Origin: Mya arenaria | Lineage: Eukaryota; Mollusca; Bivalvia; Myida; Myidae | Direction of reading: 5' to 3' | Length of the DNA stretch: 64,000 bases | NCBI RefSeq assembly: GCF_026914265.1 | Contig: NC_069126.1 | Span: forward strand, 75,829,232 to 75,893,231 | Part shown: positions 4,998 to 27,000 of the stretch, one piece after another | Layout: every line of letters starts with the position of its first letter | How positions within the stretch are numbered: position 1 is the stretch's first letter | The notes under the pieces: generated by a model | What the model saw: only the letters and a program-made list of their open reading frames with translations | What the model was told of the DNA's origin: nothing | The model's database searches: none | Made by a program: the position numbers and the translations under genes

Positions 4998-5048
4998 GTG
5001 GTGGCTACAAAGAACTCATGCACACATACAAACACACAAACATACACT

Positions 5049-5420
5049 ATGACAGCCGATACAGATCCAAACATGTCAAACATGTTAAACACGTCAAAAT
5101 ATTCGTATGATAAGAGATTCGGAAAACGTTTTCGATGTTGTGAGTGGTGTGGTGGTTACAGTAACATTGATTATCTCTTACTCGTTATGAAAAACTGTGC
5201 GCTCGAACATTCCGCGTGTCCAAGCTGTTTTGATAAATACAACGGCGTTTGTCCTGCTTGTTGGTTGAGCCATCCAGTAGCGTTAAAACACATTAAAGAA
5301 AGGAAACGATACTACAAGAAATTGGGTATCTCAGAAGGAAAAGATTATCTGACTAGAATCAAGCAAAGCGCAAGAAAACAGTTTAAGCGCTACTGGATGT
5401 TGAGATATGCATTATTTTAG
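5049..5420 (+). CDS. Cys-rich putative zinc-binding protein (~123 aa)
   Basis: An intronless ORF. ATG at 5049 (MTADTDP) is preferred over the frame-extending ATG at 4998, whose added residues are low-complexity; 5073 (MSNMLNT) is another choice. After a basic stretch (YDKRFGKRFR) come Cys pairs CCEWC, ACPSC and VCPAC, arranged like a treble-clef or RING-like zinc site. The C-terminus is Lys/Arg/Tyr-rich with helix character. A related protein is encoded at 20486-20785: both have an FxKRFRxxC start and spaced CxxC pairs. Function unknown; nucleic-acid or protein binding is only inferred from the basic tail and Cys pairs. Confidence 0.55.
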   Translation: MTADTDPNMSNMLNTSKYSYDKRFGKRFRCCEWCGGYSNIDYLLLVMKNCALEHSACPSCFDKYNGVCPACWLSHPVALKHIKERKRYYKKLGISEGKDYLTRIKQSARKQFKRYWMLRYALF

Positions 5421-5476
5421 GGCCACGGTTTTGAATATATCTTGCTGAAATCAACAAATGTCAAACAAAACGCATA

Positions 5477-5719
5477 ATGACAAGCAATTGTATTGAGAAC
5501 TGCCAGTGTGACGACTGTAAGTTTTTCAGATTAAATTATGATGACCATAAGTTTTTCGAAATTGAGAACAGCCAGTGCGACGAGTGTAACTACAGAAAAC
5601 AGAAAACAGAGAGGTACAACGCTGTTACAATTAATACAGATCAATGTCTTGAAAACTGCCAGTGCGACACATGTAAGTTGTACAGAAAGGTTTTCTGCCA
5701 GTGCGACAAATGTAAGTAG
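5477..5719 (+). CDS. Mini-protein with repeated CQCDxCK motifs (80 aa)
   Basis: The ORF reads ENCQCDDCKFF, NSQCDECNY, ENCQCDTCKLY and FCQCDKCK, that is four repeats of a Q-C-D-x-C core (three with C-x-C-x2-C and one with a single upstream Ser). Spacers are Lys/Tyr-rich. It ends in TAG right after the last repeat. The Cys pairs suggest metal binding or a disulfide knot, but there is no signal peptide. The same motif appears again in the ORF at 5877-5993. I do not recognise a family. Confidence 0.55.
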   Translation: MTSNCIENCQCDDCKFFRLNYDDHKFFEIENSQCDECNYRKQKTERYNAVTINTDQCLENCQCDTCKLYRKVFCQCDKCK

Positions 5720-5740
5720 TACTACACAGAACAAGAAGAG

Positions 5741-5875
5741 ATGCTGGTTGATGATTGTACATCGAACTTGAGCGCTAAAAGAAAAACTGAAAACTGTGAA
5801 ATGGACAGCGATGTGAACAATGTAAAAAAACAGAAAACCAGCCATGATACTGCCCCCCCAACAGATGGATGCTGA
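5741..5875 (+). CDS. Small basic ORF (44 aa) between the CQCD ORFs
   Basis: Starts MLVDDCTSNLSAKRKTEN and ends APPTDGC. It carries two short basic clusters (AKRK, VKKQK) of nuclear-signal type. It lies between and slightly before the two ORFs with CQCD motifs and runs into the next one with almost no gap. It could be a separate small gene or a linker segment of one larger transcription unit. Low confidence as an independent protein. Confidence 0.3.
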   Translation: MLVDDCTSNLSAKRKTENCEMDSDVNNVKKQKTSHDTAPPTDGC

Positions 5876-5876
5876 A

Positions 5877-5993
5877 ATGTCGGGAAAGGACGAAGACTTT
5901 CAAAACGCTATGGGTTCCTGTCCGACAATGACGTATGGTCCTTATAACAATAGTACCAATAACTGCCAGTGCGACGGCTGTACTGCCGAGTAA
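5877..5993 (+). CDS. Short ORF ending in a CQCD motif (38 aa)
   Basis: Begins MSGKDEDFQNAMG and ends NNCQCDGCTAE, so its C-terminus repeats the motif of the ORF at 5477-5719. It is followed by an AATAAA at about 6030. The shared motif in two adjacent frames supports a real family rather than chance. Confidence 0.4.
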   Translation: MSGKDEDFQNAMGSCPTMTYGPYNNSTNNCQCDGCTAE

Positions 5994-6027
5994 CATTATT
6001 GAAATCACAATGATGTGAAAACATTTC

Positions 6028-6245
6028 TGAATAAACATACAAACGAATGCTTTAAACTTGTTTTTATTGAATTAAGTAAGAACTTGTACCTACAGTATTT
6101 TCAGTGTAAGAACTGTCAACCCAAACCTAGTACGATCATGGCAAAGCAAATTTGAAATTACAGTGATGTGAACATAATTCTGACTTCTGACAATATAAAA
6201 TAAACATAAAAAACGAATGCTTTGAAATTGCTTTTTATTGAATTT
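6028..6245. repeat. Direct repeat around two poly(A) signals
   Basis: Two segments (about 6028-6070 and 6196-6245) share AATAAACATA, ACGAATGCTTT and TTTTTATTGAATT. They separate the plus-strand CQCD ORFs from the convergent minus-strand ORF at 6283-6753 and carry polyadenylation signals for both strands (AATAAA and TTTATT). Confidence 0.55.
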
Positions 6246-6282
6246 CGTAATATTCACTTGTAAGTGGCAGAAGTAAAGTAAT

Positions 6283-6753
6283 TCATGAAAAATCTTGAGT
6301 GTTTTCGTTGAATAGTTCCATACAGGCAGCTTCGTCTAAGGATTGCAGGTTGTCTGTTTGAGATTTCAAGCCCAAAACTTCGTCTTCCAATGCCGTGTTA
6401 TTTTGCTTAATCTGATTGTTTTCCGCGGTCAGCTGTGACAGATTCAATTCAACTGTATTGAAGTTATGCAAATGTTCTAACTCAGTTGTTAAACGAGTTA
6501 TTTCATATTGTTGTGCTGTGTTAGTTTGCTTATACCGATCGTTCTCTCTGGTCAAACTAAACACCTTTTGTTGTAGTGCGCCACATTTCTTGCGATACTC
6601 AGTCGTCGCTAGTTTGTTTTGCAGAATTTTTTTTTCGATATTGTCAAGTATCGAGACGATGTCTTTGAACGTAGACTCGTGCTTGTTATCACCCATACAT
6701 AGTCTCGCTACGAAGCCGGTAATTTGTAAATTAAGGTTGCTTATGTCCGTCAT
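6283..6753 (-). CDS. Coiled-coil protein (156 aa)
   Basis: A single-exon ORF starting MTDISNLNLQITGF. From about residue 30 to 145 it is a heptad-like coiled coil rich in Leu, Glu, Asn and Gln (for example LTRENDRYKQTNTAQQYEI and LSQLTAENNQIKQNN). There is no membrane segment. It is divergent from the ORF at 6888, with 134 bp between the start codons. Likely self-associating; function unknown. Confidence 0.5.
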   Translation of the reverse strand: MTDISNLNLQITGFVARLCMGDNKHESTFKDIVSILDNIEKKILQNKLATTEYRKKCGALQQKVFSLTRENDRYKQTNTAQQYEITRLTTELEHLHNFNTVELNLSQLTAENNQIKQNNTALEDEVLGLKSQTDNLQSLDEAACMELFNENTQDFS

Positions 6754-6887
6754 ATTTCTATTGTGAGCGAGTTCAATGTCAGTTTTATTTTCGATTTATA
6801 TCATGGAATGCGATTTACTAGTGAATTATTTTTTTCATATTATAAGGCTTGAAATTTGTTACTTGTCATACACATTCTCAAACAATT
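6754..6887. promoter_or_regulatory. Short divergent intergenic region with TATA-like box
   Basis: The 134 bp between two divergent start codons contains a TATA-like box CATATTATAAGG (about 6835-6846), 42 bp before the plus-strand ATG. It probably serves as a bidirectional promoter. Inference from position and sequence only. Confidence 0.35.
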
Positions 6888-7577
6888 ATGTCCAGTCAAG
6901 CATCGACACAGCAAACAACGCCTTGTGAGAATACAAGTGAAAATGAGCAAAAAAGCGAATCTTCTTCTCAGCAACCCATGGATGATATCAAGGAATATGA
7001 AAAAATGATGGAGATGGCAGAAGATTATTTGCGAGATGCTGAAGAACAAAAATCGAGCGAAATCGAATCCATGCAAGTTGACAACCCAGACGGGGCAGCT
7101 TGTTATATGAGAAATTGCTGCGTTTGTGACGGTTACTGTTATGATAGTGATAATTTTGAAGACATTGAGACCGTAGACGAGGAAGTAAAAATTGACGAAA
7201 TTGAACCAAGCATTCAAGTAAATCAATTTCAGTTCACCGAACGACACAAGGAAAAACTAATAAAAGCTATTGATATTTTCTCTGAAGGAAGATTAAAGAG
7301 AAAATGGAACACTCGCTTCCTGAGACGTTTGCAAAAAACTCCTATTCAGACAAGTGGAACAAGAGATGTTTACAACTGGGTATCAGGAATGAAATTTTGC
7401 GCCATCTCGGAACACAAAAACCCAGTCGGCTACCCGTGTACCTATTACATCAGAATCAAACAGAACGAGTCAAATAAATCCGTTCGATGTTTTTTGTATT
7501 GCCATTGCTTTAGCACGCGATGCCAGAATCTTGTTGTTTCAAAATGTATATGGAATTTTAACATCGAAATACAATGA
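6888..7577 (+). CDS. Acidic N-terminus, basic C-terminus protein (229 aa)
   Basis: Start chosen at MSSQASTQQT (6888), close behind the TATA-like box; an ATG at 6849 would add 13 residues. Residues ~1-60 are Ser/Gln/Glu-rich. A Cys cluster CCVCDGYC lies near residue 85, followed by an acidic stretch (DNFEDIETVDEEVKIDEIE). Residues ~115-150 are basic and helical (EGRLKRKWNTRFLRRL), and the last 60 residues contain five more Cys. The charge pattern resembles a regulator with an acidic activation-type region, but I recognise no family. Confidence 0.5.
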   Translation: MSSQASTQQTTPCENTSENEQKSESSSQQPMDDIKEYEKMMEMAEDYLRDAEEQKSSEIESMQVDNPDGAACYMRNCCVCDGYCYDSDNFEDIETVDEEVKIDEIEPSIQVNQFQFTERHKEKLIKAIDIFSEGRLKRKWNTRFLRRLQKTPIQTSGTRDVYNWVSGMKFCAISEHKNPVGYPCTYYIRIKQNESNKSVRCFLYCHCFSTRCQNLVVSKCIWNFNIEIQ

Positions 7578-7723
7578 TAATAAGCAGATCATGTGTTGTT
7601 TCATTTAATTTCAAAAATATTGCATATGTTCACGAAACATTTTTTGATTACAGTAAATAGCTTTCAGTATATGTTCATACTTAGCCATGCTTGAAAAGAC
7701 ATTTGATATAGCCGCCCTGTTTG

Positions 7724-7879
7724 ATGTGTTTGCTGCAAGAAGACTTGTCGAGTGTTGACAAAACTTACAAAGTTGTTGAAAAGCTCAGTAGCAGAGACTT
7801 AGAGAGAAATGAGAATCACGAAGCACTTCGCCAGTTCTTCGCCAGGCGTGGGAGACAGTTTGTGCCAAAACGTTGTTAA
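7724..7879 (+). CDS. Small basic ORF (51 aa)
   Basis: Starts MCLLQEDLSSVDKTY and ends FARRGRQFVPKRC, with TAA at 7877 and an AATAAA four bases later (7881). The Arg-rich tail and the poly(A) signal at the stop support a small real gene. A convergent poly(A) signal for the minus strand lies at about 7943. Confidence 0.4.
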   Translation: MCLLQEDLSSVDKTYKVVEKLSSRDLERNENHEALRQFFARRGRQFVPKRC

Positions 7880-8177
7880 CAATAAATTGAGTGATGAACA
7901 GACAATGAATAGTAGCAAAATAAAATGTATGAACTGTTCGTGTTTTATTGTGTTTATCTATAGTAATCTATTTGGAATCACTTAAGCTTCAAGAACAACT
8001 ATGCTTGCTCATAGTTATCAAACGAGTAACGGTCATATAGTCATATATATGTGCAAATCGCTATGCATAACTCCTCAAAGATAAACAGAATGTATCGTAA
8101 AATGCTACAAAGTACGATACTTAAGCAAAATAAAACATGAAATAAAGTAAAACAATCACAGAATAATGTTACGATTT

Positions 8178-8393
8178 TCAGTACAAAATTGACCGTTCAG
8201 CAGTAGCTCTCAGCTGATTATTATAACGGAAAGTGTTGTCTGTCGTATTCACTTGGATACGGTTGAACCATGTAAACAATACTCTTTGTGTGTAAAATTT
8301 GGGATATTTTCTGTGTTTGAAGGTACGACCTTGGTAGTTATAGTTTCTATAATGTTTTCGCGATTGAACCAAGCCGGGTTTATGCATATACAA
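8178..8393 (-). CDS. Small Arg/Tyr-rich basic ORF (71 aa)
   Basis: Reads MYMHKPGLVQSRKHYRN at the start; strongly basic, with many Tyr, Arg and Asn and no Cys. The next minus-strand poly(A) signal is near 7943, facing the signal of the ORF at 7724. A small DNA- or RNA-binding protein is possible; nothing more can be said. Confidence 0.3.
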   Translation of the reverse strand: MYMHKPGLVQSRKHYRNYNYQGRTFKHRKYPKFYTQRVLFTWFNRIQVNTTDNTFRYNNQLRATAERSILY

Positions 8394-8638
8394 GAGATAT
8401 AAATGATTTTACGAGGTTTTAAACATTTCCAATTTCAGAAAATATTTCTACTTTCGATTTCGTTTTTCTGAAAATGAACAAACTTTTTTTTTCCTAATGT
8501 TTAATATCATAAAACGATACATAATACATAATAAACATAATTTCAATTATTTTTAATGAGTCTATTTTCTTTATTTTCGTAAAAGTTTAAAAAATAAATA
8601 AATAATGCAATTCATGGAATGATATGACGTGATATGTA

Positions 8639-8646
8639 TGACGTCA
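8639..8646 (+). promoter_or_regulatory. Consensus CRE (TGACGTCA)
   Basis: A full palindromic CREB/ATF site 79 bp before a strong splice donor. It lies 30 bp upstream of a YY1-type motif (GGCCATCTTG at 8676-8685) and just ahead of the proposed first exon of the spliced transcript. Both motifs are typical of TATA-less host promoters. Confidence 0.5.
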
Positions 8647-9929
8647 TATTGCAGAGTTCTCGCTGTGCGCTGGTCGGCCATCTTGAAAAATAAATTGTGA
8701 AGGTCGTATTTCCAGCTTTCCTGCGGTAAGTATGACATGAATGTTTAAAAGTTTTATGAGAAATTGTGTCTAAATATATGATGTATCATATTACCAGCAA
8801 GTTTTGTCGATGTATCTATTGAATTCCATAAAAACTTCTGTCAAAAGAAATTGGTCCCAGCTCGTTTTAGAATGTTTCGAACATTCTCGAAGCCGATTTT
8901 AGAAACTTCAATTCTCGGCTAGATATGTTGAAAAACAGAGTAAGCAGTGTTAATTCATATCTCTTGTCTTGTTTATGTCATATTTTGAATGATTTCAACT
9001 TTGTTTAGGGACCAAACTGACAGAAATAAGAAATGGCAAATCATGCAAGATTGATAAATATCTTCTTCTATTTCTTTGTTTGAAAAATATGTTGAAAATT
9101 ATTTTTTTTAAACCAGAGACGGCAGTTCAGATGCAGTCGTCCTGTGTGTCAGAAAGCTGGTGATCAAAATGGTTGAAGGCAGTACCCAAGAAAGTACATT
9201 TACAAGTAAGTAAAATCACTGAAAATTAATTCCATGAATTGAACTGTCATATCATAATCTCAGTGCTTAGTCTGTTTGGAAATATGCTTGGAATATTTTT
9301 TATAAACTGATAATTTATCTAATAACAGACACTGTGTTTGATTTATTACATTGAACTGCTATTAGATAAATTTTCAGTTTGTGTTTGATATCTACCAATG
9401 CCATAAATGCATATTTTTGTTCCTGTTGTGAATGATAAGAAATGTTGGGAACATAATACCTTCTGCATGTGAACAGTTTTTCTGTTTCTGTTTGTATGTA
9501 GGAAGCATTTTGTTTTCAGGATTATTTCAACATTGTTGATGTGGATGAAATGTGCACTTAGCCATGCTTTTAATGGAATGAAAAATGTAAAAAACTAACA
9601 AGCAATATGTGCAGTTTTGTTGATAAAATGTTTTGTTTCAGAGTTGTGAGGAGTAACCTAGCCTATATAACCTGAAGCTCACCCAATATGCAGTGTGTTC
9701 TGCTCTGACAATAACAAGTAAGTAATTTCACCAAATTTCATCAGAAACAAATCTCAAAGTTACAATGAACAGTAAAGTTAACTCATCTTGGTACTTTGGT
9801 ATACTGAAACACTGAACCAACATGATTTGATTTTGCTCTTTGTACTTATTTCACATTATGGTAGCAAAATTACAGCTATGTGTCAGATTCATGACATTTA
9901 GCATTTGTCATACATTTCACTCTTTCAGT

Positions 9930-10130
9930 TGTCAAACCAAATGCTAAGTGTCAAATTCATTCATGATATTTAGCATGTGTCATACATTTCACTATATTAT
10001 TTGTCAAACCGAAAGATGAATGTCAAATTATTTACACATGCTTAGCAGTTTATCATAAATTTTACTCATTTTATTTGTCAAACCAAAAGATGAATGTCAA
10101 ATTATTTGAAGATGCTAAGCATCTTATCAT
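9930..10130. repeat. ~75-bp tandem repeat, first block
   Basis: Units marked by TTTGTCAAACCAAA(A)GATG or ...TGCTAAG, then GTCAAAT, then a CATTTCACT or TTTTACTC stretch, recur at about 9931, 10001 and 10077. The same units form a longer block at 11540-12010. Confidence 0.65.
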
Positions 10131-10625
10131 ACATTTTACTCTCTTTATGACAAATCGACTCACAAATTTAAGCAAACCAGGTGACGATGTACAAGTATTT
10201 TGGGGTGACGAGCTTTTTGGTTCGCTCGCCCGACCAAACAAAAACACTTTTAGTATATATATAAGTCTTTTTGTTTGGCCGGGCGAGGTAACCAAAAAGC
10301 TCGTCACCCCAAAATACTTGTACATCGTCACTTTGTGTGCCTAATTTTGTGAGTCAACTAAATCGTTCTAAATTCAATGTAAAAAAAAGTTTCATAAGGG
10401 GGGTACTCAGTGTGAAAAAACTACATCGCTTAAACGCAAATGCGCTTTGGTAAGTATATAGCTAAAAAACGAATGCGCTATGGTGAAAATCCAAAGTCAA
10501 AAATTTTGAAAAAATTGAAAAGTTGTCAAATAAATCATAATTTTAAGCACATTGTTAGTGTTCTGCTCTATCATTTGTAAATCAAAACTGAAAGAATGGT
10601 TTATATGTTTTGAGACTAAGCATTT
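9950..10625. repeat. Segmental duplication, copy A
   Basis: About 670 bp nearly identical to 11835-12490. It covers tandem units, a palindrome, and a tail with ACTACATCGCTTAAACGC and AATGCGCTATGGTG. By eye identity exceeds 90%, so the duplication is recent. This copy lies in intron 3 of the spliced transcript. Confidence 0.75.
10157..10355. mobile_element. Palindromic element (MITE-like), copy A
   Basis: Outer ends GACTCACAAATTT and AATTTTGTGAGTC; inner arms from GTGACGATGTACAAGTATTT (10181) to its complement ending 10331. The core contains CGCTCGCCCGACCAAAC on one side and GTTTGGCCGGGCGAGG on the other, around an AT loop. The frame through it encodes WGDELF, a motif also seen at the C-terminus of the ORF at 18848-19411. 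Confidence 0.65.
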
Positions 10626-11115
10626 ACAACTCACTGCAAATATTCTTTGGTGGTCAAAGACTTAATAGAAGTTAATTAGCCAGTGTTCATATTTAGTAAA
10701 TGAAAATTAGTGAGTTGAAGCTTATATTGTTAAGTTTTATTGTATATCATCTGGCAGGGATAACAAGATCATTTAAGATTCATGTTTTTGGTGGCAAACA
10801 AATTGAACAAGTATTGTTCTTATTTTACTCACTCATTGATGTTTTCATTTTTCAACAGAAATGTTTTGTTTTTTCAGCTCTGTATGGCTGGTCTGACCTC
10901 AGTGGAAGTTGTTCGTTTAAATGGTTTCGGGACATTGAAGTAAAACAACACGAGGTAAAATACAAAGTGCTTATTTATTTTTTAACTTGTTCATCCAGTA
11001 GTATATGATAAAATGTTTTTGAACTTGTTCATCCAGTATTATATGGTACATACAACAATAATGTAGAATATTAAATCACTGAGTTGCGGCTTCTCTGAAC
11101 AAACATCTGTTCACT

Positions 11116-11397
11116 TTATGTCCACAGTTTTTTGAGAAACAAACAGGGCATCTGTAAGGGCTGCCTGTTTGCTTCAGATTCCCAGTCCTCCTCGCTGATG
11201 ATTTCTGAAGTCCTTACGCAGTCACCCCAGTCTTCAACCTCGGTTTGTACAGGTGATAATGTTTTTGAACCATAGTTCATTGTCATGTCATTGGAATTGT
11301 TCAGCTGCTCCAGTTCTGACTGTAACTCTGTTTTGAGTACAGCAAGTCTAGCCTCAAGAATGGCAATTCTTTTAATTTTGCGGTTAAGTCTCTCCAT
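11116..11397 (-). CDS. Small coiled-coil/acidic protein (93 aa)
   Basis: ATG at 11397 (MERLNRKIKRIAILEARL) begins a basic then Leu-rich heptad region of about 35 residues. An acidic part follows with EDWGDCVRTSEIISEEDWE. The WGD tripeptide in an acidic tail recalls MNWGDELFD of the ORF at 18848-19411, so the two may be distant relatives. It lies in intron 4 of the spliced transcript, on the opposite strand. Confidence 0.4.
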   Translation of the reverse strand: MERLNRKIKRIAILEARLAVLKTELQSELEQLNNSNDMTMNYGSKTLSPVQTEVEDWGDCVRTSEIISEEDWESEANRQPLQMPCLFLKKLWT

Positions 11398-11539
11398 TGT
11401 ACAGATCATAAATTGCTGTAGGTTTCAAGTTTTGTAATGATATTAAGTATGCGTTACATATTAAATATGCACAAAAATAATGCATTCGATCTGCATTTCA
11501 CAAGTGTAAAACATCACAAATGAATGGTATTTCAATCTA

Positions 11540-12010
11540 CTTTTTTGTCAAACCATATGACATTATTTGTTCATTAGTAAAACAAATTGATGAATATCAA
11601 AGCGATTCATGATACTGAGCATTTATTAAACATTTCACTTTATTGTTTGTCAAACCAAATGCTAAGTGTCAAATCGATTCATGACACTGAGCATTTATCA
11701 AACATTTCACTCTATTATTTGTCAAACCAAAAGATGAACGTCAAATTATTTACAGATGCTAAGCAGTTTATCATACATTTCACTTTATTATTTGTCAAAC
11801 CAAATGCTAAATGTCATGTCTTGAATCGATTCATGATATTTAGCATTTGTCATACATTTCACTCTATTATTTGTCAAACCAAAAGATGAATGTCAAATTA
11901 TTTACAGATGCTAAACAGTTTATCATAAATTTTACTCATTTTATTTGTCAAACCAAAAGATGAATGTCAAATTATTTGAAGATGCTAAGCATCTTATCAT
12001 ACATTTTACT
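11540..12010. repeat. ~75-bp tandem repeat, second block
   Basis: About six units, each with TTTGTCAAACCAAA, GTCAAAT(C/T), a GATRCTRAGCA core and CATTTCACTYTATT. Spacing between GTCAAACC starts is 73-80 bp (about 11547, 11649, 11722, 11792, 11873, 11948). It adjoins the palindrome at 12027. Confidence 0.7.
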
Positions 12011-12490
12011 CTCTTTATGACAAATCGACTCACAAATTTAAGCAAACCAGGTGACGATGTACAAATAATTTAGGGTGACGAGCTTTTTGGTTACATCGCC
12101 CGGCCAAACAAAAAGACTTATATATATACTAAAAGTGTTTTAGTTTGGCCGGGCGAGCGAACCAAAAAGCTCGTCACCCCAAAATACTTGTACATCGTCA
12201 CTTTGTGTGCCTAATTTTGTGAGTCAACTAAATCGTTCTAAATTCAATGTAAAAAAAGTTTCATAAGGGGGGGTACTCAGCGTGAAAAAACTACATCGCT
12301 TAAACGCAAATGCGCTTTGGTAGGTATATAGCTAAAACGCGAATGCGCTATGGTGAGAATCCAAAGTCAAAAATTTTGAAAAATTTGAAAAGTTGTCAAA
12401 AAAATCATAATTTTAAGCACGTTGTTAGTGTACTGCTCTGTCATTTGTAAATCAAAACTGAGAGAATGGTTAATATGTTTTGAAATTAAG
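11835..12490. repeat. Segmental duplication, copy B
   Basis: Second copy of the segment at 9950-10625, in intron 4 of the spliced transcript. Flanks match copy A in the same orientation, whereas the centre of the palindrome is inverted relative to copy A. Confidence 0.75.
12027..12225. mobile_element. Palindromic element, copy B, with flipped core
   Basis: Same arms as copy A at 10157-10355, but the core between the arms reads as the reverse complement of copy A: here GGTTACATCGCCCGG comes first and GGCGAGCGAACC last. The outer flanks stay in the same orientation. Confidence 0.7.
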
Positions 12491-13163
12491 CATTTATCAT
12501 TTTTGTAAAAATCCAATGTTATAAATGAAACCAAAATTTACCAGAGTAAACATTAATGTGCTATTGTATGTAAGAATGTTTCGTCTTTTACACGTTTCAT
12601 TTCATTTTTTCAGATGAGATGCCATACACAGGGGATCCGACAGAAGACAGCAGACAGAGTTCGTCGATCTATTTGAAATGTCATTGTTTATTTGAAAAAA
12701 GTTACCTATCCACACTTGTTCGTTTTAAAATATTGTTTGTATTATATGTGCTTTGTACCGTTGCTTTGTTTCATCAGTAATTCTCCAACACTTGTTTTTC
12801 GTGTTTTACATGAACATTGAAAATTTAACATACATTAAATCATTTCAAAAAATAAAAATCAAATGGAGAAATACTGATTTATCTGTTTGCTTTTAATGTT
12901 TGTGCTGTCTTGCTTACCCCAGTAACGCGGGTCTTGTTTGCTATTGTGAGTACTGTTGTTATTTTTTTGGCCATCCAAAGTATTTTTCACGAAATTGGTT
13001 ACATTTTGGTCTGTCGATTTTTTTCATTGAAACCACAGTCAAACGGTTTTTTTCACTATATTTTTTTATGAGAAACAGCCAGACTTGGTCACGGCTGAAA
13101 CCGAGGAACATTTGTGATTGAACAAAATTTTAGCAGTAATGCTGCTTGTAATTCATAAATTTA

Positions 13164-13355
13164 TTAAGCTTTGGTCTTGTCATATTGATTACGATATTGG
13201 TTGGAACATAACTTGGTAAAATGGTAAACATTTTGATAGTGTGCACAAGAGCAAAATTTGCACTGCATTTTAAAATGTTTCATTTTTGTGAAATGCTGTT
13301 GACAAAATGATTTGTTTGCTCGTGCCAGCATGGGTCGACGAGATTCGTTTCTCAC
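13164..13355 (-). CDS. Small Cys/His-rich ORF (63 aa), doubtful
   Basis: Starts MRNESRRPMLARANKSF and contains several Cys, His and Lys (FCSCAHYQN, LCSNQY). A shorter minus-strand frame at about 16323-16427 begins MRNKSRRSY, because the start region belongs to the block duplicated near 16400. The partial similarity of both frames is the only support. Confidence 0.25.
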   Translation of the reverse strand: MRNESRRPMLARANKSFCQQHFTKMKHFKMQCKFCSCAHYQNVYHFTKLCSNQYRNQYDKTKA

Positions 13356-13654
13356 TGTCCTTTATGCGGCGGTTTAAGATGCGAGCCTGTTGTTTTGTCA
13401 ATGTCTATAAAGTTCAGCTTGAATGAAAATTGAAATCAATATTGCAAGATCAAGCACTTTTTAAAAAAAAAATGTTAGTCAAAAGTGTTAGAATTGTAGA
13501 TGCGTTGTGAAATACAAGTGAAATGTACTAGGCTCATTGCATTCTTAGTTTGGTTTCGAAGTGCAAAACTTCATCACAAACATTCCTCTTGAACGACCGA
13601 ACATTGATATGTGGCAATGTTTTCGTTCAACAAAATGATTCGGCAAAAGTAATT

Positions 13655-13905
13655 TAAAGGCTAGCATGAGTATGGAGGTGTCGTTAGACCAGCTTAGTAT
13701 TGGTGTAAGGTGGTGTACAGTGCCAATACTAGGAACCGCTCATGTTCACCATGTCACGCTACAGGCAATGAAAAATAGGGAGTGGCAACCTCTTTGTATT
13801 GCCGTGGTCCGACACTCCACACAGTCTTTACAATGAGAGGGGAAATATAGGCAATCGGATGCTTCTTCCTAAGTGTGCCTTGTCGAGTAACTGCCTTTGG
13901 CGTTG
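13655..13905 (+). repeat. Duplicated hairpin-rich block, copy 1
   Basis: About 250 bp, GC-richer than its surroundings, matching 16505-16765 at roughly 88-90%. It includes a stem TAGTATTGG...CCAATACTA and a stem GGAGTG...CACTCC. An ORF-like frame starts at MSMEVSLDQLSIGV. The strong conservation inside AT-rich, poorly conserved DNA points to a functional RNA or small protein, or to recent duplication. Confidence 0.6.
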
Positions 13906-14159
13906 GCTTTATTTTCAAATTTGTGAACAAATAAAACTAGGTTAGGACCACATAATAGGGTTACGATGGAAATTAGGTTTCCCTTTTAATGTTTGAAGAT
14001 AACAGCCACTGGCGTTATACTTCAAAAAATGGCTCGAAATACACAGATGTACAAAAATAATGCAAAACATGAACAGCAAATTCACAAATTCTGCTGTGTT
14101 GAAATTTAAAAAAATCAAACATGAGATTGTATGAAAAAGCTTCTTTTTTATTTTCAAAC

Positions 14160-15800
14160 AATTGAGATATCACAATCATTAGCCATATGTACAAAAATAA
14201 TGCAACTCTGAATTATAATTTCATGCTCTCAACAAAAAATATGCATCGAAAATTGTGAAATATTGTGAAAATCTAGAAGTTGACGAGAGATCTCAAGATT
14301 TCAAAAACGAACTATAGGCTTTATTTCACACAATATTTCATGAAAAAAATATCAAATCTTCATAATGTTCAAAATCTAGAAATTAACGAGGTATCTCAAG
14401 ATTTCATAAAAAAATTATAGGCTCCATTTATTCAAAAAATTATAGGCTCATGCAAATCTTTCAAAAAATTATAGGCTCATGCAAATCTCTCAAAAATTAC
14501 AAATTTCACAATCATAAGCAATATGCATAAAAAAATGCAGCATCAAGTCCATGAAACATGAAAAATTGATATCTTTCTGAGACTGGCGTTCACACAAGGT
14601 CTCATGAAAAAAATCAAATCTTCATATTGTTGAAAAATTATAGGCTCATACAAATCTCTCAAAAAATTACAAATCTCACAATCATAAGCCATACCTTCAA
14701 CATTTGTGCTCTGAAACTAGCGTTCATACCAGTTTTCATGAGAAAAAAATTAAAATCTTCATATTGTCGAACATCTAGAAATTAACGCGTGATCTCAAGA
14801 TTTCAAAAAAAATTTATAGGCTTCATTTATTCAAAAAAATTATAGGCCCATGCAAATCTTTCAAAAAATTATAGGCACATGCATATCTCTCAAAAAATTA
14901 CAGATCTCACAATCATAAGCCATATGCACAAAACATGCAGCTAAGTCCATGAAACATGAAAAATTGATATCTTTCTGAGACTGGCGTTCACACAAGATTT
15001 CATGAAAAAAATCAAATCTTCATAATGTTGAAAAAATTATAGGCTCATGCAAATCTCTCAAAAAATTACAAATCTCACAATCATAAGCCATATGCACAAA
15101 ACATGCAGCTAAGTCCATGAAACATGAAAAATTGATATTTTACTGAAACTGGCGTTCACACAAGATTTCATGAAAAAAATAAAATCTTCAAAATGTTCAA
15201 ATTCAACAAATCGACATTTGCAGCAAATCTCTCAAATCTCACAATCATAAGCCATATGCACAAAAATGCAGCATCAAGTCCATGAAACTTGAAAAATTGA
15301 TATCTTTCTGAGACTGGCGTTCACACAAGATTTCATGAAAAAAATAAAATCTTCATAATGTTCAAATTCAACAAATCAACATTTGCAGCAAATCTCTCAG
15401 ATCTCACAATCATAAGCTATATGCACAAAAAACACCAAGTTCATGAAACATGAAAAATTGGTATCTTACTGAAACTGGCTTTCACACAAGATCTCATGAA
15501 AAAAATCAAATCTTCATAGTGTTGAAAATTATAGGCTTCATTTATTCAAAAAATTATAGGCTCATGCAAATATCTCAAAAAATTACAAATCTCACAATCA
15601 TAAGCTATATGCACAAAAAACACCAAGTCCATGAAACATGAAAAATTGATATTTTACTGAAACTGGCGTTCACACAAGATTTCATGAAAAAAATAAAATC
15701 TTCATAATGATCAAATTCAACAAATCGACATTTGCAGCAAATCTCACAGATCTCACAATCATAAGCTATATGCACAAATTCCACCAAGTCCATGAAACTT
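14160..15800. repeat. AT-rich tandem array, ~165-230 bp units
   Basis: About nine units each contain CACAATCATAAGC, CATATGCACAAA, AAGTCCATGAAACATGAAAA, TGAAACTGGCGTTCACACAAG and CTTCATAATGTT. The anchor CACAATCATAAGC (with small variants) recurs near 14172, 14507, 14676, 14908, 15077, 15240, 15406, 15593 and 15756. No coding frame is conserved between units. Arrays of this kind serve as origins or enhancers in some DNA viruses, but a plain satellite is equally possible. Confidence 0.7.
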
Positions 15801-16025
15801 GAAAAAAATGATATTTTGCTGAAATTGATTTCACATAATCTTCATAGAAAAACTACTTCATTCACAGATTTCAAAATCTCGAGCCATTTGTACAATAATA
15901 ATGCGGAATCAAGTGATAATTCTGGAACTATTTCATATGAGCGTATAAATAAAAACGGTAAAAAAAATAGTCCTAACCATTTATGCACAATTATAATGCG
16001 ATGCGCATTAATTTTGGCCATCGGG

Positions 16026-16033
16026 TATATAAG
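16026..16033 (+). promoter_or_regulatory. TATA box (TATATAAG)
   Basis: A canonical TATATAAG preceded by GCCATCGGG. The predicted start is some 28-30 bp downstream, near 16055-16060. It stands between the AT-rich array and the hairpin-rich region that ends at a poly(A) signal at 17527. Confidence 0.45.
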
Positions 16034-16056
16034 CTCCACATTTTTCAATATTCGTC

Positions 16057-17550
16057 ATTCCAGTAGCAAGCTCTTAGCTCAGAAGTGCTGTTAGTCTGCT
16101 GGGAGCCCAAAGTGGGTTTGAACTTCTCAGATTTCTCCTCGCACTATGAACTTGGTGCATCAGAGATACAGAGAAAATATCTGAGAGGTTTTTTGACCTT
16201 TTGGTTTGAACATGAGAACCGTATGTCGCGATACCTCATAGTTTTTCGCTCTTGAGTCTGGCCAGCTCATGTTGTCGATCACTTTGACATCGCCTGACGA
16301 ATACGATCATTCTCTGTGATAACCATTAGATCATATACAATTCAAAAGCGATTTTGGCAAGTGATTTGTCATTTGCGTCTGGTAGCATGAGCATAGAAGT
16401 ATAGCTTCGACGAGATTTGTTTCTCATTGCTCAATATGTTACGGTCTTGGATGCAATGCAATGATTTTGTCAACTTCGCAAAAACATTTTGGCAAAAGTA
16501 AAATTAGAGAGGCTACCATGAGTATGGAGGTGTCGTTAGACCAGCTTAGTATTGGTGTATGGTGATGTACAGTACCAATACTAGGAACCGCTCATGGTCA
16601 TCATGTCGCGCTACAGGCAATGAAAAATAGGGAGTGGCAACCTCGATGTATCGCTGTGGTCCGACACTCCACACAGTCTTTACAAAGAGAGAGGAAAACA
16701 CAAGCAATCGGATGCTTATTCCTAAGTGTGCCTTGTCGAGTAACTGCCTTTAGCGCTGCCTCAGTTTTTTTCAAAATTCAAAATTCAAACTTCAATCGCT
16801 TCTTTGCTCATAAGTTGCGATACATAAAAGGAAATGCTTTCTGAGATTAAAGTTAGCATTTCCTGCCTGCAAGTAAAGCGAGCAAATATGCCTCTATGTG
16901 CTTAAGAGGTGTGTTTGAAAGTGAACTCTGTAGCCTTCTCTTAGATCAAAAGAGAAATAAGTCTACGAGTTTTCGAGCCTAGCTTGTGGTTTTGGGTACT
17001 TGAAGTTGATCGCATATTTCCAATCGTTCACTGATCGATCTATGCGGCTGTAGCACTCGATTCTTGCTTCAGTATAGCCATTCATGTATCTGAGATCATA
17101 AGTTCGGCGTTGTGCCTACAACGAGTCAGCAATACCCCGTTTGTTACACCCGAGTAGTCCAGCACTCTACATTATAGGTGTAACAAATTGTAGAAGGTCG
17201 CCTGGAAGGCCTCTAATGGGTGCTGATTTTGCGTAGTGTATGACACTAGGAAAATAGGTTTCTGGCTCAGAGTTACCATTTTCCGATCTCGCTGATGCCG
17301 TGGGTAACCTGACCAATGCCAGTCACAAGTCTGGATGAAAAACAGGGAGTGACCACATTGCATAACAAAAATACTTTTCATATTGAATGTTTGACATTAT
17401 AACAATTGTAAACATTTGCTTGTGTTTGATTTCATGAAAACAATTGTGTATAATTATGTATATTGATATGTTTGCAATGTTATGAATACTATGCATGTTT
17501 GTACTTTGTTATCTGCTTACATTTTGAATAAAACATAAACTGAAATTAGA
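16057..17550 (+). ncRNA. Candidate structured non-coding transcript
   Basis: Proposed from a TATA box at 16026 and an AATAAA at 17527. The segment is GC-richer than its neighbours and lacks a convincing long ORF; a 74-codon frame at 16620-16844 overlaps the duplicated block. Visible hairpins: CTCAGAAGT...ACTTCTCAG near 16080-16128, TAGTATTGG...CCAATACTA in the duplicated block, and TTTGTTACACC...GGTGTAACAAA at 17139-17189. A messenger for a small protein cannot be excluded. Confidence 0.35.
16505..16765 (+). repeat. Duplicated hairpin-rich block, copy 2
   Basis: Second copy of 13655-13905. Matching also extends upstream in patches (CGACGAGATT(C/T)GTTTCTC near 13334 and 16409). Here the block lies inside the proposed TATA-to-poly(A) transcript. 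Confidence 0.6.
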
Positions 17551-17752
17551 AGCATTAGTTGTATATGAGAAATTTTCAATAGTTATGCAACGATTGAGTG
17601 AAACAAAATTTAAGGATCATGAAGACTTTCGTCTTTTGAAATGCTTCAAACTGCAAAGCGCACTTCACTTTCACGTGAAAGCAATTTTTAAATTTCATCT
17701 CATATTTTTCAAAATCTTCAAACATAAGAAAAAACTCATGTTTCCTTTGCAT

Positions 17753-17770
17753 TATAATTTCAAGCTCTTA
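17753..17770 (+). promoter_or_regulatory. Shared promoter motif of the RING genes, copy 1
   Basis: TATAATTTCAAGCTCTTA occurs 66 bp upstream of the RING gene start at 17819 and again 73 bp upstream of the paralog at 19640. A near match (TATAATTTCATGCTCTCAA) is at about 14215. The TATAAT core and fixed distance suggest a core promoter element. Confidence 0.45.
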
Positions 17771-17818
17771 TAATCTTCACTTCTCAGTCATTTATTCATT
17801 CTTGAGTTGAAGTCAAAC

Positions 17819-18427
17819 ATGTCAGATACAACGTTAAGCTTAATTAGCAATTTGGCAGATCGTGTAAAACACTGTGAATCTGACTTGCAGCAAATAAAGA
17901 TATTCATTAGTACGCGAAGTAGCAAGCGCACTTTGGACGTGCTAAGAAAATTTCTTTCACTGCTTCACAAATGTGTGAAAATATTGCAAAATACAGCGAT
18001 TTCCATTAAACCTCCAAACAAGATGTGTAAACCGAAACAGAAGACCGGAGACCTATTGTCACAGGTTCAAAAGCTAAAAAATGACTTGAAAAATTTAAAA
18101 ACAGACTTGAACAACATTTCACAGCGCTGTGGTAGGGAGAAAGAAGTTAACATTTTGGCTGACATGCGATTAGTATCCAAGATATTTCGAAAGACCACCA
18201 CACTAGGAGACCTTCTCTGGCATCACCTCAGCATGAAAGAAGAAACGCGACAAGAGTTGCAACTACAAAACGATGAAAAAAACATTTGTCAAATTTGTGT
18301 TACGGACAAAAAGTGTATTGTGTTTACGCCTTGTGGCCATTTGACTTGTCATGAATGTTCAATCAAAACTAGTAAATGCTATTTTTGTAGAACTGTTGTT
18401 ATCGGAAAATATCAAATTTATGAATAA
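17819..18427 (+). CDS. Coiled-coil protein with C-terminal IAP-type RING (202 aa)
   Basis: Start chosen at MSDTTLSLISNLADR (17819) because the paralog starts identically; the ATG at 17807 adds four residues. Residues ~1-150 are helical and Lys/Leu-rich with coiled-coil stretches (QKLKNDLKNLKTDLNNI). Residues ~157-190 form a C3HC4 RING: CQIC, PCGHLTCHEC, KCYFC, then a short tail GKYQIYE, as in the RING at the end of IAP/BIRC proteins. By family knowledge this would be an E3 ubiquitin ligase. There is no BIR domain. A poly(A)-like signal is not obvious at the stop. Confidence 0.75.
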   Translation: MSDTTLSLISNLADRVKHCESDLQQIKIFISTRSSKRTLDVLRKFLSLLHKCVKILQNTAISIKPPNKMCKPKQKTGDLLSQVQKLKNDLKNLKTDLNNISQRCGREKEVNILADMRLVSKIFRKTTTLGDLLWHHLSMKEETRQELQLQNDEKNICQICVTDKKCIVFTPCGHLTCHECSIKTSKCYFCRTVVIGKYQIYE

Positions 18428-18847
18428 ATAGTAAAATATATTCCTCTGTACTTGTTTTCAATTTTGTTTCTTCACGGTGTTATTAATGCTATTACCTCCC
18501 TTTAAGAAGAATGAGATACTGGTTTTTAGTAGATGAAAAATATCTCGTAAAACGTTATTGTTTTCAAAATAAACAATTTGGGAACGTATGATAACTGTAA
18601 CTTAAGTATATTGGAAAATTTGTTTAGTTGCTGATACATAACTTCATGTTCAGATTTTATTTTATTTTCAAATCAAAGGCTGTGATTTTAGTCTTCGGGT
18701 ATTTTCCATTTATCGATGTGTTATTCAACAATTTGTATGACAAAATAATAATCAAAGAACGAGAAGCAAAAATAAGTGGTATGAAAGGTTTTATTTTGAA
18801 ATCATTACATAATTTACGTTTCATTGAAACAGAACATTTTTCAAAAG

Positions 18848-19411
18848 TTATACGCTGGGGGTTTCTTCGTTCGGTGTCTGGTCAAAAAGTTCGTCACCCC
18901 AATTCATTGCCACAGACAGTGTCTCATCATTATCACCAGTATCATCAGTATCGGAATGGTAACTCAAATCCCTTCTACAAACTGGGATGTTCGAATCCTT
19001 CTTGCAAACTGGGGTGTTCAAATCCCTTCTGCAAACTGGGATGCTCAAATCGCTTTTGACTACTTCATTTGTGACTCGTTGAAGAATTCCCTTTAGTTTC
19101 CGTATGTGTCGCTTGTGCTCTCTAAGCAGATGCTGTGTTTTTCGAATCGCTTTAGAAGAATGCTGGCCTTCTTGTTTTAGAAATCGTTCTAATGTTATTT
19201 TCTGCCTTCTATGTGCCATAACGACCATATTCATATTGTTGATTGTCTGTACTTTCGAACATTGTCCAAGGTATTCGAGTTCCTTTGTCAAACTTGTACG
19301 AACATGAGTTGGTACATTTTTCGAACAGTACTTGAGATATTTCTGAAGTAGTGTGTTTGTCTTGTTCTCATACTGGGGAATAGATGTGCTATATCTATAT
19401 TCGTTAGCCAT
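18848..19411 (-). CDS. Basic protein with short Cys repeats and acidic tail (187 aa)
   Basis: Starts MANEYRYSTSIPQYENKT. Residues ~60-115 are strongly basic and helical (MAHRRQKITLERFLKQEG, LLREHKRHIRKLKGIL). Then three near-copies of a ~10-residue unit, SIPVCRRDL, NTPVCKKDS, NIPVCRRDL, match a ~30-bp tandem repeat in DNA. The tail is acidic (SDTDDTGDNDET) and ends MNWGDELFDQTPNEETPSV. The WGDELF part is also encoded by the palindromes at 10157 and 12027. It lies between the two RING genes on the opposite strand. Function unknown. Confidence 0.5.
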   Translation of the reverse strand: MANEYRYSTSIPQYENKTNTLLQKYLKYCSKNVPTHVRTSLTKELEYLGQCSKVQTINNMNMVVMAHRRQKITLERFLKQEGQHSSKAIRKTQHLLREHKRHIRKLKGILQRVTNEVVKSDLSIPVCRRDLNTPVCKKDSNIPVCRRDLSYHSDTDDTGDNDETLSVAMNWGDELFDQTPNEETPSV

Positions 19412-19566
19412 CTCTCCACGTATTGCAGCTAAGGAATACCCATAATGTAGAATATGAGCTTTTATATCATACGATTAAACTTTTATAATGCACAAGTGTT
19501 TATCCAATGAAATGAGATTATGATGATCATTGTTGAAAACAAAACGAATCAGTGTTTTCATTGCAT

Positions 19567-19584
19567 TATAATTTCAAGCTCTTA
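19567..19584 (+). promoter_or_regulatory. Shared promoter motif of the RING genes, copy 2
   Basis: Same 18-bp sequence TATAATTTCAAGCTCTTA as at 17753, in the same position relative to the start codon. Upstream DNA of both RING genes is alike, so promoter and gene were duplicated together. Confidence 0.45.
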
Positions 19585-19639
19585 TTACTCGAGTTTCATT
19601 CATCAATTATTTAATCCATTCATTCAGTTGATATCAAAC

Positions 19640-20233
19640 ATGTCAAACACAACTTTAAGCTTAATAAGCAATTTGGCAGATCGTATGGAACACAGTGAAA
19701 CTCAGGTGTTGTACATGAAAACTATCGTAGTAAATAACAGCAAACACGTATCTGGCGTCTTAAGAAAACTTTTGCCATTAATTCGTAAAAGTGTAAAATC
19801 ACTTCATAAGATAGCTTCTTCAGAAAAGCCTCCTAGCAAGGTGAGCGAGCAAGACAAAACAAATAGAGTTTTACCACTAGCCAGAGAAATTAAACGTGAC
19901 TTCAAAAACTACAAAATTGAGTTGAACAAAATATCAGAACGTTGTGGCAGGGAGAAAGAAATTGACATTTTATCCAAAATCCGATCGGTATCCAAGATCT
20001 TGCGTAAAACAAACCCACTAACATCCCTTTTGCGCAATCTTCTCAGCAGGGAAGCAGAGTTGCAACGACAAATCGACGAAAAAAACATTTGTACAAGTTG
20101 TGTTACAAACAAAAAGTGTATTGTGTTTATCCCATGTGGACATTTATCTTGTCAGTCATGCTCCATTACCAGCAGCGAATGTCACATTTGTAGATCGGCT
20201 ATTGTTGGAAAATATCTTATGAATAAATCATAA
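19640..20233 (+). CDS. Paralogous coiled-coil/IAP-type RING protein (197 aa)
   Basis: Start at MSNTTLSLISNLADR (19640), matching the paralog; the frame extends upstream to 19520 but that part is unlike protein. The body is helical and Lys-rich, with SERCGREKEIDILSKI closely matching SQRCGREKEVNILADM of the first gene. The RING at residues ~151-184 reads CTSC, PCGHLSCQSC, CHIC, followed by RSAIVGKY. All eight zinc ligands are present in both copies. Roughly half of the residues are identical by eye, so the duplication is old compared with that of the palindromes. Confidence 0.75.
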   Translation: MSNTTLSLISNLADRMEHSETQVLYMKTIVVNNSKHVSGVLRKLLPLIRKSVKSLHKIASSEKPPSKVSEQDKTNRVLPLAREIKRDFKNYKIELNKISERCGREKEIDILSKIRSVSKILRKTNPLTSLLRNLLSREAELQRQIDEKNICTSCVTNKKCIVFIPCGHLSCQSCSITSSECHICRSAIVGKYLMNKS

Positions 20234-20485
20234 ACAATTATTTGTATTTTTGCTTTCTGTTTATTTCATTTACATAGAAAGGTGAACTGTGTTAATCACT
20301 CAAACACTACCAGTTCTGATTTACACAGCTATGCTGTAGACAGCCGCAATACGCTAGTTAGCTCAAATTTCTAACATTGGTAAGCAAAGTTGACGAATGC
20401 AAGTTCCAGAAATAATGTATACGCTTTTAAGAGCACTTCAAACTATTAATACAGCGGGGACTGTACTATTCACACTTCACTTACT

Positions 20486-20785
20486 ATGGCAAAACGATAT
20501 ACTGACATCGTTGGGTTTGCTGGACTACAGTACAATGATTATTTCAAAAGATTCCGTTGGGAATGCCAATTGTGTTGTGCTGGAGTCTTTACGTTAGAAC
20601 CTTGTCAACGACATGAGATTTTGAACATTTTCCCTCCAGCTGGCTACTGCCAAAACTGTTTTCGATATGTGTGGTACTGTAATGATTGTAAGGCTGATGG
20701 AACGCCACCAAAAGTGCGAATGAGAAACTATTGTTTGTCATGTTTCTTCCACCGATTTGAAAATCTTGCAATCTTGGCCGGCTAA
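20486..20785 (+). CDS. Cys-rich putative zinc-binding protein (99 aa)
   Basis: Starts MAKRYTDIVGFAGLQYN. Cys pairs CQLC, YCQNC, YCNDC and YCLSC are spaced across the protein with His near the ends, compatible with two zinc sites. FKRFRWECQLC resembles GKRFRCCEWC in the protein at 5049-5420, and the later Cys pairs have similar spacing. A poly(A) signal AATAAA lies about 60 bp after the stop. Function unknown. Confidence 0.55.
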   Translation: MAKRYTDIVGFAGLQYNDYFKRFRWECQLCCAGVFTLEPCQRHEILNIFPPAGYCQNCFRYVWYCNDCKADGTPPKVRMRNYCLSCFFHRFENLAILAG

Positions 20786-20919
20786 CCCTGACGTGGTTGA
20801 AGAAAGTTTTCGATTGATTGTGACAATTATCTTGTTTCACAAAATAAAAAATAAAAACTTGAAATAAATTACTTTGTTTTTGTATCTGATACCAAGACGC
20901 TCATTTTTTTCTCTGATGA

Positions 20920-21032
20920 TTTTCAATTTTCATTTTCAACTTTCATTCTCAATTTTCATTTTCAATTTTCATTCTCAATTTTCATTCTCAATTTTCATTC
21001 TCAATTTTCATCCTCAATTTTCACATTCGTCA
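20920..21032. repeat. TTTTCATTCTCAA-type microsatellite
   Basis: About nine tandem copies of a 12-bp unit TTTTCATTCTCAA / TTTTCATTTTCAA. Frames through it translate as Phe/Ser-rich artefacts. Confidence 0.85.
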
Positions 21033-21778
21033 TTTTCAAACAATATCCTCGTGGGACTAAACCCACTCACCGCCGATATCGGGTTGTATACTACATGGGC
21101 TGGGCGGATCCAATATATCACGTTGGAGAGGGGCTCTTGGGTGCGCCCTTCCCGCAGATACAAAACATGATATGCTCTGAATGCGGTACGCGGTTTTGGG
21201 ATTCTTCCAAGGCCAGTCTAGCTATTTTGGTTTAAAATTGTGAATTCATGTGTGATATGCATACTTTTCCACCAAATTGAAAAGAAATGTTCACTTGAAA
21301 ATTTCAAGGGGTGTGGATAGGGATGTTACCGCGTGTGCTCCCTCCCTAGATCCGCTAGCATGTCGCTTCCACTACAAAACCAGCACAGTTTACTATGGGT
21401 CTAATAATAAATATAACTTTGTACATACATGTTAATTATTTTAAACAGTTTCTGGTCCGGTTCGTGCCTGATTAGCATGTCGAAATGTATGTACCATGTC
21501 CAATTTGCAATGCAATCTTTACCTTCTGATTATATTTTCCTCTTGCTTAGTTCACATGCAGGTACTAGTTTGCAACCTCTTGATATTCAGATATATTTAT
21601 GTCTACTGTTGCCTACTTGAAGCAATGCGGGGACAATTCTCGCCCGAGAAATATTTTCATAGTTAGGTTCAGTTTCAAATAAACTACTAGAAGTACTCTA
21701 CTTAAATATTGTTGTATTCGGTCAAACCTTAACCTCGATCGTGTTCCATGGCAACGTCGGCCCGTGTTGGTCTTCTGT
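21033..21778. other. Intergenic, no gene seen
   Basis: A GC-richer patch at about 21050-21360 (with CACCGCCGATATCGGG and CTCTTGGGTGCGCCCTTCCC) stands out but has no extended frame. Nothing further supported. Confidence 0.4.
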
Positions 21779-26616: not shown

Positions 26617-27000
26617 AGTAAACCATCGATTTACCCATTTGAAAACACAGTAACTTGTAGGTAAGCCCATAAGTAAACCATTGAATTACCCATTTGAAAA
26701 CACAGTTACTTGTAGGTAAGCCATAAGTAAACCATCTAGTAACCCATTTGAAATCACAGTTACTTGAAGGTAAACCATAAGTAAACCATCTAGTAACCAA
26801 TTTGAAAAAAAAAAACCACAGTATCTTGTAGGTGAACCCATGAAGTAAATAATTGGCACCCAATGAAGTGTATGTAAACCCCTGAATTTAACCATTGGCA
26901 CCCCATTAGAAAACACATTAGGGTGTCGGTAAACCCATGAAATAAACCATTAATGCCCCATTGGGAAAAAAACAGTTAATTATAAGTAACTTAAAAAGTA
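26617..27000. repeat. ~55-60-bp minisatellite, right part
   Basis: Continuation of the array at 24600-25267 beyond the LINE: GTAAACCATCTAGTAACC, TTTGAAAACACAGTTACTTG and TAGGTAAGCCATAAG repeat five to six times. ORFs read through it are repeats of GLLMVYLQVT-like peptides and not genes. Confidence 0.75.

Follow-up and report, generated by a model that had tools for sequence, protein, structure and literature searches.

A large endogenous DNA-virus element, probably herpesvirus-like, present as a left-truncated copy in the genome of Mya arenaria

Structure and gene content of the island

The stretch analysed here, a window of 64,000 nucleotides from the bivalve Mya arenaria (C5:75829232-75893231 on contig NC_069126.1, in a searched genome of 1.216 Gb and 18 contigs), contains between positions 4854 and 21088 an island of 16,235 bp. 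It represents one copy, 16.2 kb long and shortened from the left, of a large DNA-virus element endogenous to this genome, and it sits cleanly in host DNA on the + strand, here taken as the orientation in which the constant right terminus of the element comes last. Its edges are the limits of similarity to the other genomic copies, together with the empty site described below: on the left the match to five other copies starts at 4854, with preceding bases that differ from theirs, and on the right the similarity between copies ends at 21088. An earlier sequence-only reading of the window had drawn the island too narrowly, at 4998-20785, as a set of closely spaced single-exon open reading frames (ORFs) on both strands. 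The ORFs are indeed intronless and occupy both strands, but their spacing is uneven, as two clusters at about 5.0-7.6 and 17.8-20.8 kb enclose an ORF-poor 10 kb of palindromes and tandem repeats. The sharp contrast in style with the rest of the window is also weaker than had been claimed, because long single-exon ORFs are present elsewhere in it.

The left cluster comprises a 123-aa Cys-rich ORF (5049-5420, +), which is RING-like only below the cut-off (Sina_RING, E = 0.012) and has a 124-aa paralogue in another copy, L032; an 80-aa Cys-rich ORF (5477-5719, +); a 156-aa coiled-coil ORF (6283-6753, -) with a bZIP_1 match just under the cut-off (E = 2.8e-5); and a 229-aa acidic ORF (6888-7577, +) to which the family scan assigned no family. 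A 97-aa ORF (11116-11409, -) lies in the middle region. To call the ORFs largely whole was generous, as the 80-aa and 97-aa ORFs are shorter than their relatives in L032, which have 277 and 127 aa, respectively. The right cluster contains RING1, a 202-aa ORF (17819-18427, +) with an IAP-type C-terminal RING (zf-C3HC4_3, 2.8e-10), a 187-aa basic ORF (18848-19411, -) with a 190-aa counterpart in copy L044, RING2 (19640-20233, +; 8.9e-9; start placed at 19520 in the ORF listing) and a 99-aa Cys-rich ORF (20486-20785, +) adjoining the right terminus. RING1 and RING2 are paralogues with 53% identity, the closest solved structure to the RING of this pair being the XIAP RING (8.7e-10), and a 33-nt box, 94% alike, precedes both genes, in agreement with the shared upstream boxes noted earlier. 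The second pair of paralogues then proposed, the Cys-rich ORFs at 5049-5420 and 20486-20785, showed no significant similarity when the two were compared (E = 17). The poly(A) signals noted at several stops amount to a modest excess: six of nine ORFs have AATAAA or ATTAAA no more than 150 nt from the stop, compared with 467 of 1608 background windows (29%).

Five ATG-initiated ORFs of at least 150 aa are found within 4854-21088, two of them the RING genes, whereas among 200 first-order Markov resamples seven had one and none had more. The ratio of nonsynonymous to synonymous changes (pN/pS) is 0.25 for RING1 (12 rows from 11 places besides the window, much of the divergence coming from a single 86% identical row) and 0.29 for the 99-aa ORF (14 places), while the other six ORFs gave values of 0.5-0.7 or had no usable rows. 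A coding signal is therefore indicated by these comparisons in at least two ORFs, RING1 and the 99-aa ORF, and the complete lack of such a signal, which the sequence-only reading had named as telling against an element, was not encountered.

The tandem array and palindromes of the middle region proved to be real. The array (14336-15824) consists of units of about 165-168 bp. A near-perfect palindrome with an AT-rich centre, 96-nt arms and a 7-nt loop (10157-10355) recurs with the same arm and loop lengths at 12027-12225, within a module that is repeated every ~1.87 kb here and is also repeated in other copies of the element; a 501-nt probe of the palindrome and its surroundings found at least 40 near-full copies in the genome. 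The palindrome at 10157-10355 may serve as a replication origin, an AT-rich centre being a feature of herpesvirus origins. One of its arms contains GTTCGCTC, one letter from GTTCGCAC, the herpes simplex virus origin-binding box, with rough odds of accident of ~15%.

Insertion site, dispersal and the constant end

The host flanks of the island (4701-4853 and 21089-21240) are continuous in an empty counterpart: when joined, they match the uninterrupted sequence C5:75824037-75824343, 9.9 kb upstream of the left flank of the island, with 97% identity over 305 of 305 bases. In the 50 junction bases of this empty site no host base has been lost, and the target carries either a 2-bp TA duplication or a simple insertion with a chance overlap of one or two bases; comparison of flank with flank found no target duplication, nor did direct comparison within the window. 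From the alignment of these flanks, the island is a clean insertion that followed a local duplication of host DNA.

The contents of the island are dispersed throughout the genome. RING1 is found full length at 20 places including the window, 17 of them without stops, and the 99-aa ORF at about 75 places (minimum query coverage 80%, minimum identity 77%). A 2.1-kb stretch has ten other copies in nine distinct places (L018 and L044 being one place). Their identity to the window is 98.2-99.1%, and most pairwise comparisons within a set of eight of these loci give 99.0-99.8%, with L017 accounting for the lower values. As mollusc genomes commonly contain RING and BIR domains, an ordinary cluster or segmental duplication of host genes might be considered; the number of dispersed copies with a single exact end in common, together with the empty site and the linkage to a terminase and a polymerase described below, makes this scarcely credible, and the candidate was dropped on the dispersed copies and the empty site. 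As far as tested, the ORFs behave as a dispersed repeat rather than as the fixed host genes that the sequence-only reading had held out as the contrary outcome.

The right end is constant. All 15 of the loci read, the window included, diverge after the same base, and the terminus itself (21039-21088, +), which has at least 40 genomic matches, bears two short palindromes, GTGGG..CCCAC and CCGATATCGG. The final bases are TTGTA in 13 loci, TTGTG in one and TTGCA in one. Beyond this point 12 loci have no DNA in common except, in some, a short dispersed repeat. The other three (on C16, C12 and C9) continue into one shared sequence, with 99% agreement over 564-1087 nt, in which a 41-bp minisatellite precedes a protein kinase gene, K1.

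The left end is lost to varying degrees. Linkage was counted for 74 copies of the 99-aa ORF, namely the rows that passed the above thresholds without C3:62193214, rows of lower identity or shorter length being left out, against lists of 22 Rep, nine OTU, five GIY-YIG, four terminase and 13 K1 places in which fragments had been merged and distant matches dropped. Leftwards from the right end the number of copies declines in the order 74, 18, 5, 2 and 2: a Rep ORF in the same orientation lies 16-22 kb to the left in 18 of the 74, an OTU match at 24-29 kb in five, a GIY-YIG ORF at 29-33 kb in two and a terminase at 51-54 kb in two. The window copy is thus a member of the truncated majority. On the other side, K1 lies within 3 kb beyond the 99-aa ORF in 11 of the 74 copies, and at C10:29.9 Mb a further K1 adjoins a 99-aa match of reduced length. 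At C5:74.3 Mb a distant K1 (47%) lacks a neighbouring 99-aa ORF and lies 6 kb from a terminase; this divergent K1 and terminase locus at C5:74.32 Mb is a distant relative of the element.

Some units are arranged head to tail, the junction between the right end and the K1 side being seen at base resolution in three loci. Within such chains, in an assembly that has gaps, one 99-aa copy follows the next at 85,684 and 36,554 bp on C12, at 42,696 and 128,409 bp on C9 and at 31,943 bp on C10, and the C9 matches to OTU, GIY-YIG and terminase each have a duplicate ~48.56 kb away. At C3:89.28-89.32 Mb two right ends point towards one another and each side has K1 and polymerase, which makes a head-to-head pair. 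Two near-identical copies, at C5:39.79 Mb and at C13:16.93 Mb, have left parts that stop at assembly gaps beside long satellite arrays (~170-bp units and a short-unit array).

Genes of the fuller copies and viral placement

Fuller copies carry further genes to the left of the content of the window. Among them are RING ORFs and a BIR-BIR-RING IAP of 309 aa in L034, which is shortened in L031, an OTU-domain ORF of 594 aa (1.3e-5), two ORFs judged by eye to resemble membrane or secreted proteins, and ORFs of 290, 351 and 469 aa that gave no significant family match. A GIY-YIG ORF in its own 154-aa frame (Pfam, 3e-8) resembles about 58 other GIY-YIG matches in the genome, some of them in frames of 800-2000 aa. 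A 303-aa ORF has a circovirus-type Rep domain, found under the cut-off in Pfam (0.0057) and by similarity to Rep in the PDB (5.9e-6). Compared with circovirus Rep, this domain has Arg in place of the first His of motif II and His in place of the catalytic Tyr of motif III; these being the expected catalytic residues, it is unlikely to nick DNA itself.

A terminase and a capsid protease also lie on this left side. The herpesvirus-type terminase (large subunit) family PF02499 was found at four places in the genome (E = 5e-17 to 6e-17) and in none of 14 control genomes, in frames of 713 aa at C9 (two) and C10 and of 446 aa at C5:74.3 Mb, and a 233-aa piece alone exceeds the cut-off (2.5e-8). The herpesvirus-type capsid maturation protease (assemblin) family, Peptidase_S21, has one match genome-wide, in the copy on C15 (E = 5.8e-5; 31.9 bits against a cut-off of 27). 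Beyond the right end, K1 is accompanied by a B-family DNA polymerase and a second kinase, K2. The polymerase is linked to K1 on C9, at three places on C3, at two on C12 and on C10; in five of these seven places it occupies frames of 1333, 1339, 939, 1339 and 750 aa, and the C10 and C3:36.5 Mb places have it in fragments. Among solved structures, a piece of the polymerase is closest to herpesvirus polymerases (3e-6), with polymerase delta at 8e-4.

The terminase and the capsid protease point to the Herpesvirales. The island is best explained, with good confidence, as a fragment of an endogenous herpesvirus-like element that has multiplied in the host genome. On these profile matches the element may be filed as a putative endogenous relative of the Herpesvirales, Malacoherpesviridae-like in host and gene style, with no claim at the family level; its ancestor would have been a member or close relative of the Herpesvirales that entered the germ line and multiplied. 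The earlier view of an integrated or captured element lacking its hallmark genes in the window gains support from the terminase, polymerase and protease of other copies and from the empty site.

Several observations weigh against this placement. The terminase piece has no match in the PDB, NCBIfam or PHROGs, and the modest protease match, present in a single copy, covers positions 15-131 of a profile of 337. The polymerase piece also matches phage (PHROG, 8.8e-13) and bacterial profiles, with DNA polymerase II at 2.2e-7, so that it gives no placement by itself. Polymerase and terminase were not found within one junction-to-junction unit, no unit was seen with all of the genes, and IMG/VR scans with three proteins returned no relative for any of the three. 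Finally, none of the 13 counted K1 places has a K1-side end joined to host DNA, as simple end-joining of both virion ends would predict. Some of these points would also suit a different lineage of Duplodnaviria whose packaging module is herpes-like, the mirusviruses for example, since the polymerase piece is not exclusive to herpesviruses and herpes-type terminase and protease profiles would match mirusvirus-like viruses too. The occurrence in an animal genome and the content of IAP and RING genes, which is typical of mollusc herpesviruses, render such an origin unlikely. In the available text of a published analysis, the IAPs of ostreid herpesvirus 1 (OsHV-1) and MalacoHV3 are placed among mollusc IAPs (PMC11521996).

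A second group of B-family polymerases, in frames of 1022-1494 aa at three places, is located at C6:25.26-25.33 Mb with distant RING1 matches (36-38%) nearby, and perhaps belongs to another related viral lineage.

Mode of multiplication and comparison with known systems

The constant end, the graded loss opposite to it, the near-zero change of the target and the head-to-tail chains suggest one-ended joining of concatemeric viral DNA through the right terminus, which we tentatively regard as the most likely mechanism, with slightly less than an even chance of being correct. The viral DNA would be made as head-to-tail concatemers, one end of which would be joined to host DNA through the right genome terminus, either by host end-joining or by an enzyme encoded by the element, and loss of the other end at varying positions would leave copies that are anchored on the right and truncated on the left. 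The RING, IAP and OTU proteins would, judging from their families, serve the virus through the host ubiquitin and apoptosis pathways.

The single exact end with graded loss of the other would also suit an active transposon of herpesvirus origin with a one-ended mechanism of its own, rolling-circle-like or nick-primed and driven for example by the GIY-YIG protein. The 98.7-99.8% likeness of the copies, the presence of GIY-YIG and Rep-domain ORFs in the element and the clean insertion, with a TA duplication of 2 bp at most, favour this possibility, whereas the Rep domain lacks the motif II His and the motif III Tyr, and no transposase or reverse transcriptase was found in the ORFs scanned, from an element read in part and with no genome search aimed at these enzymes; we consider it the chief alternative, possible but not probable. 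That a herpesvirus has become a mobile element for which the right terminus is the sole required end, without inverted repeats and with head-to-tail chains arising from the same terminus, is rather doubtful. If true, it would represent a route from virus to transposon unlike the piggyBac fusion of Teratorn or the telomere route of human herpesvirus 6 (HHV-6).

The giant Terminons, Penelope-like retroelements of bdelloid rotifers, are similar to the Mya element in their size, 5' truncation, head-to-tail arrays and GIY-YIG, Rep and membrane-protein-like ORFs, according to the available part of their description (PMC6431247). A Terminon-type element inserted by target-primed reverse transcription was considered on the GIY-YIG and Rep ORFs, and the likeness of the former to GIY-YIG matches in long frames agrees with it. 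However, Terminons rest on reverse transcriptase, whereas the Mya element has the replication and packaging genes of a DNA virus; the DNA polymerase, the terminase and the use of both strands for ORFs are at odds with it, the GIY-YIG domain is not fused to a long frame, and the candidate, demoted once the polymerase and terminase were found, is now very improbable.

A Polinton/Maverick was rejected, as the polymerase fits the RNA/DNA-primed PolB profiles PF03104 and PF00136 and no inverted terminus is present among the matches listed. A Helitron was likewise set aside, the terminus being TTGTA and not CTRR and the Rep ORF having no Pfam helicase match and no catalytic residues. Herpesviruses rarely become heritable, and in the known multicopy case, Teratorn, a transposase was borrowed; the target duplication of Teratorn and piggyBac is TTAA. 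Teratorn and the Teratorn-like elements of teleosts are, in the available text of their reports, herpesvirus genomes turned into multicopy mobile elements with viral genes intact, in Teratorn a fusion of an alloherpesvirus (Alloherpesviridae) and a piggyBac-like element that bears terminal inverted repeats (PMC5601938, PMC10175614). By contrast, no second, inverted end occurs among the matches listed for the Mya terminus, and the window site shows either no duplication or TA, and not TTAA; a piggyBac-herpesvirus fusion was rejected on these grounds. HHV-6, which carries the Rep-type gene U94, resembles the element in that chromosomal integration takes place through a genome end, but it uses telomeric repeats, whereas the Mya insertions are interstitial and the terminus is not a telomeric-repeat array.

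The malacoherpesvirus-like genomes integrated in amphioxus and Capitella teleta provide a further parallel. As far as the available text of their descriptions goes, Branchiostomid herpesvirus 1, BelcheriHV-1 and -2 and the Capitella elements likewise have intronless herpesvirus-type genes, including polymerase and terminase, in an invertebrate genome (PMC2994540, PMC5552708, PMC12373286). The Mya element differs from them in its ~75 right-end copies, mostly truncated, with one exact common end. Likeness to the Malacoherpesviridae may reside in the types of terminase and polymerase, and OsHV-1 carries IAP and RING genes as well. The members OsHV-1 and haliotid herpesvirus 1 (HaHV-1) are free viruses of about 190-211 kb which, in the accessible text of their description, have a TRL-UL-IRL-X-IRS-US-TRS layout (PMC11092209). 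In the partial units read from the Mya element this TRL/IRL-TRS/IRS layout was not seen; inverted palindrome modules and the one head-to-head pair on C3 were observed.

A literature search that covers subscription papers thinly turned up no multicopy herpesvirus element from a bivalve, and the high copy number with one constant end provisionally looks like a new variant of endogenous herpes-like elements. The number of anchored copies, the purifying selection on some of the reading frames and the clean empty site make the germ-line spread of viral DNA with only one defined end testable, as well as the way in which such elements supply animal genomes with IAP, RING, OTU and kinase genes. In genomes of this kind, genes annotated as RING, BIR or kinase may have a viral source.

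Other features of the window and of related copies

Two direct repeats in the island, at 13639-13922 and 16488-16778, pair with 88.7% identity, and a 13-bp tandem repeat occupies 20919-21023, close to the right terminus. Matches of microRNA families to the palindromes all scored below the Rfam gathering score and are attributed to the long hairpin. A candidate type-P1 twister ribozyme (17301-17355, +) reaches 37 bits, below the Rfam gathering score of 67.2 (E = 5.2e-5); 65 nt at this position are identical in 17 of 19 rows, window included, in a surrounding region that is ~99% alike in any case. Two tRNA matches above the gathering score (L042:291-372 and 521-602, -) sit inside the element copy at C10:5.57 Mb, where the window differs. 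Outside the island, reverse-transcriptase-like ORFs of 420 and 837 aa (25408-26670, - and 33424-35937, -) appear by eye to belong to non-LTR (long terminal repeat) retrotransposons.

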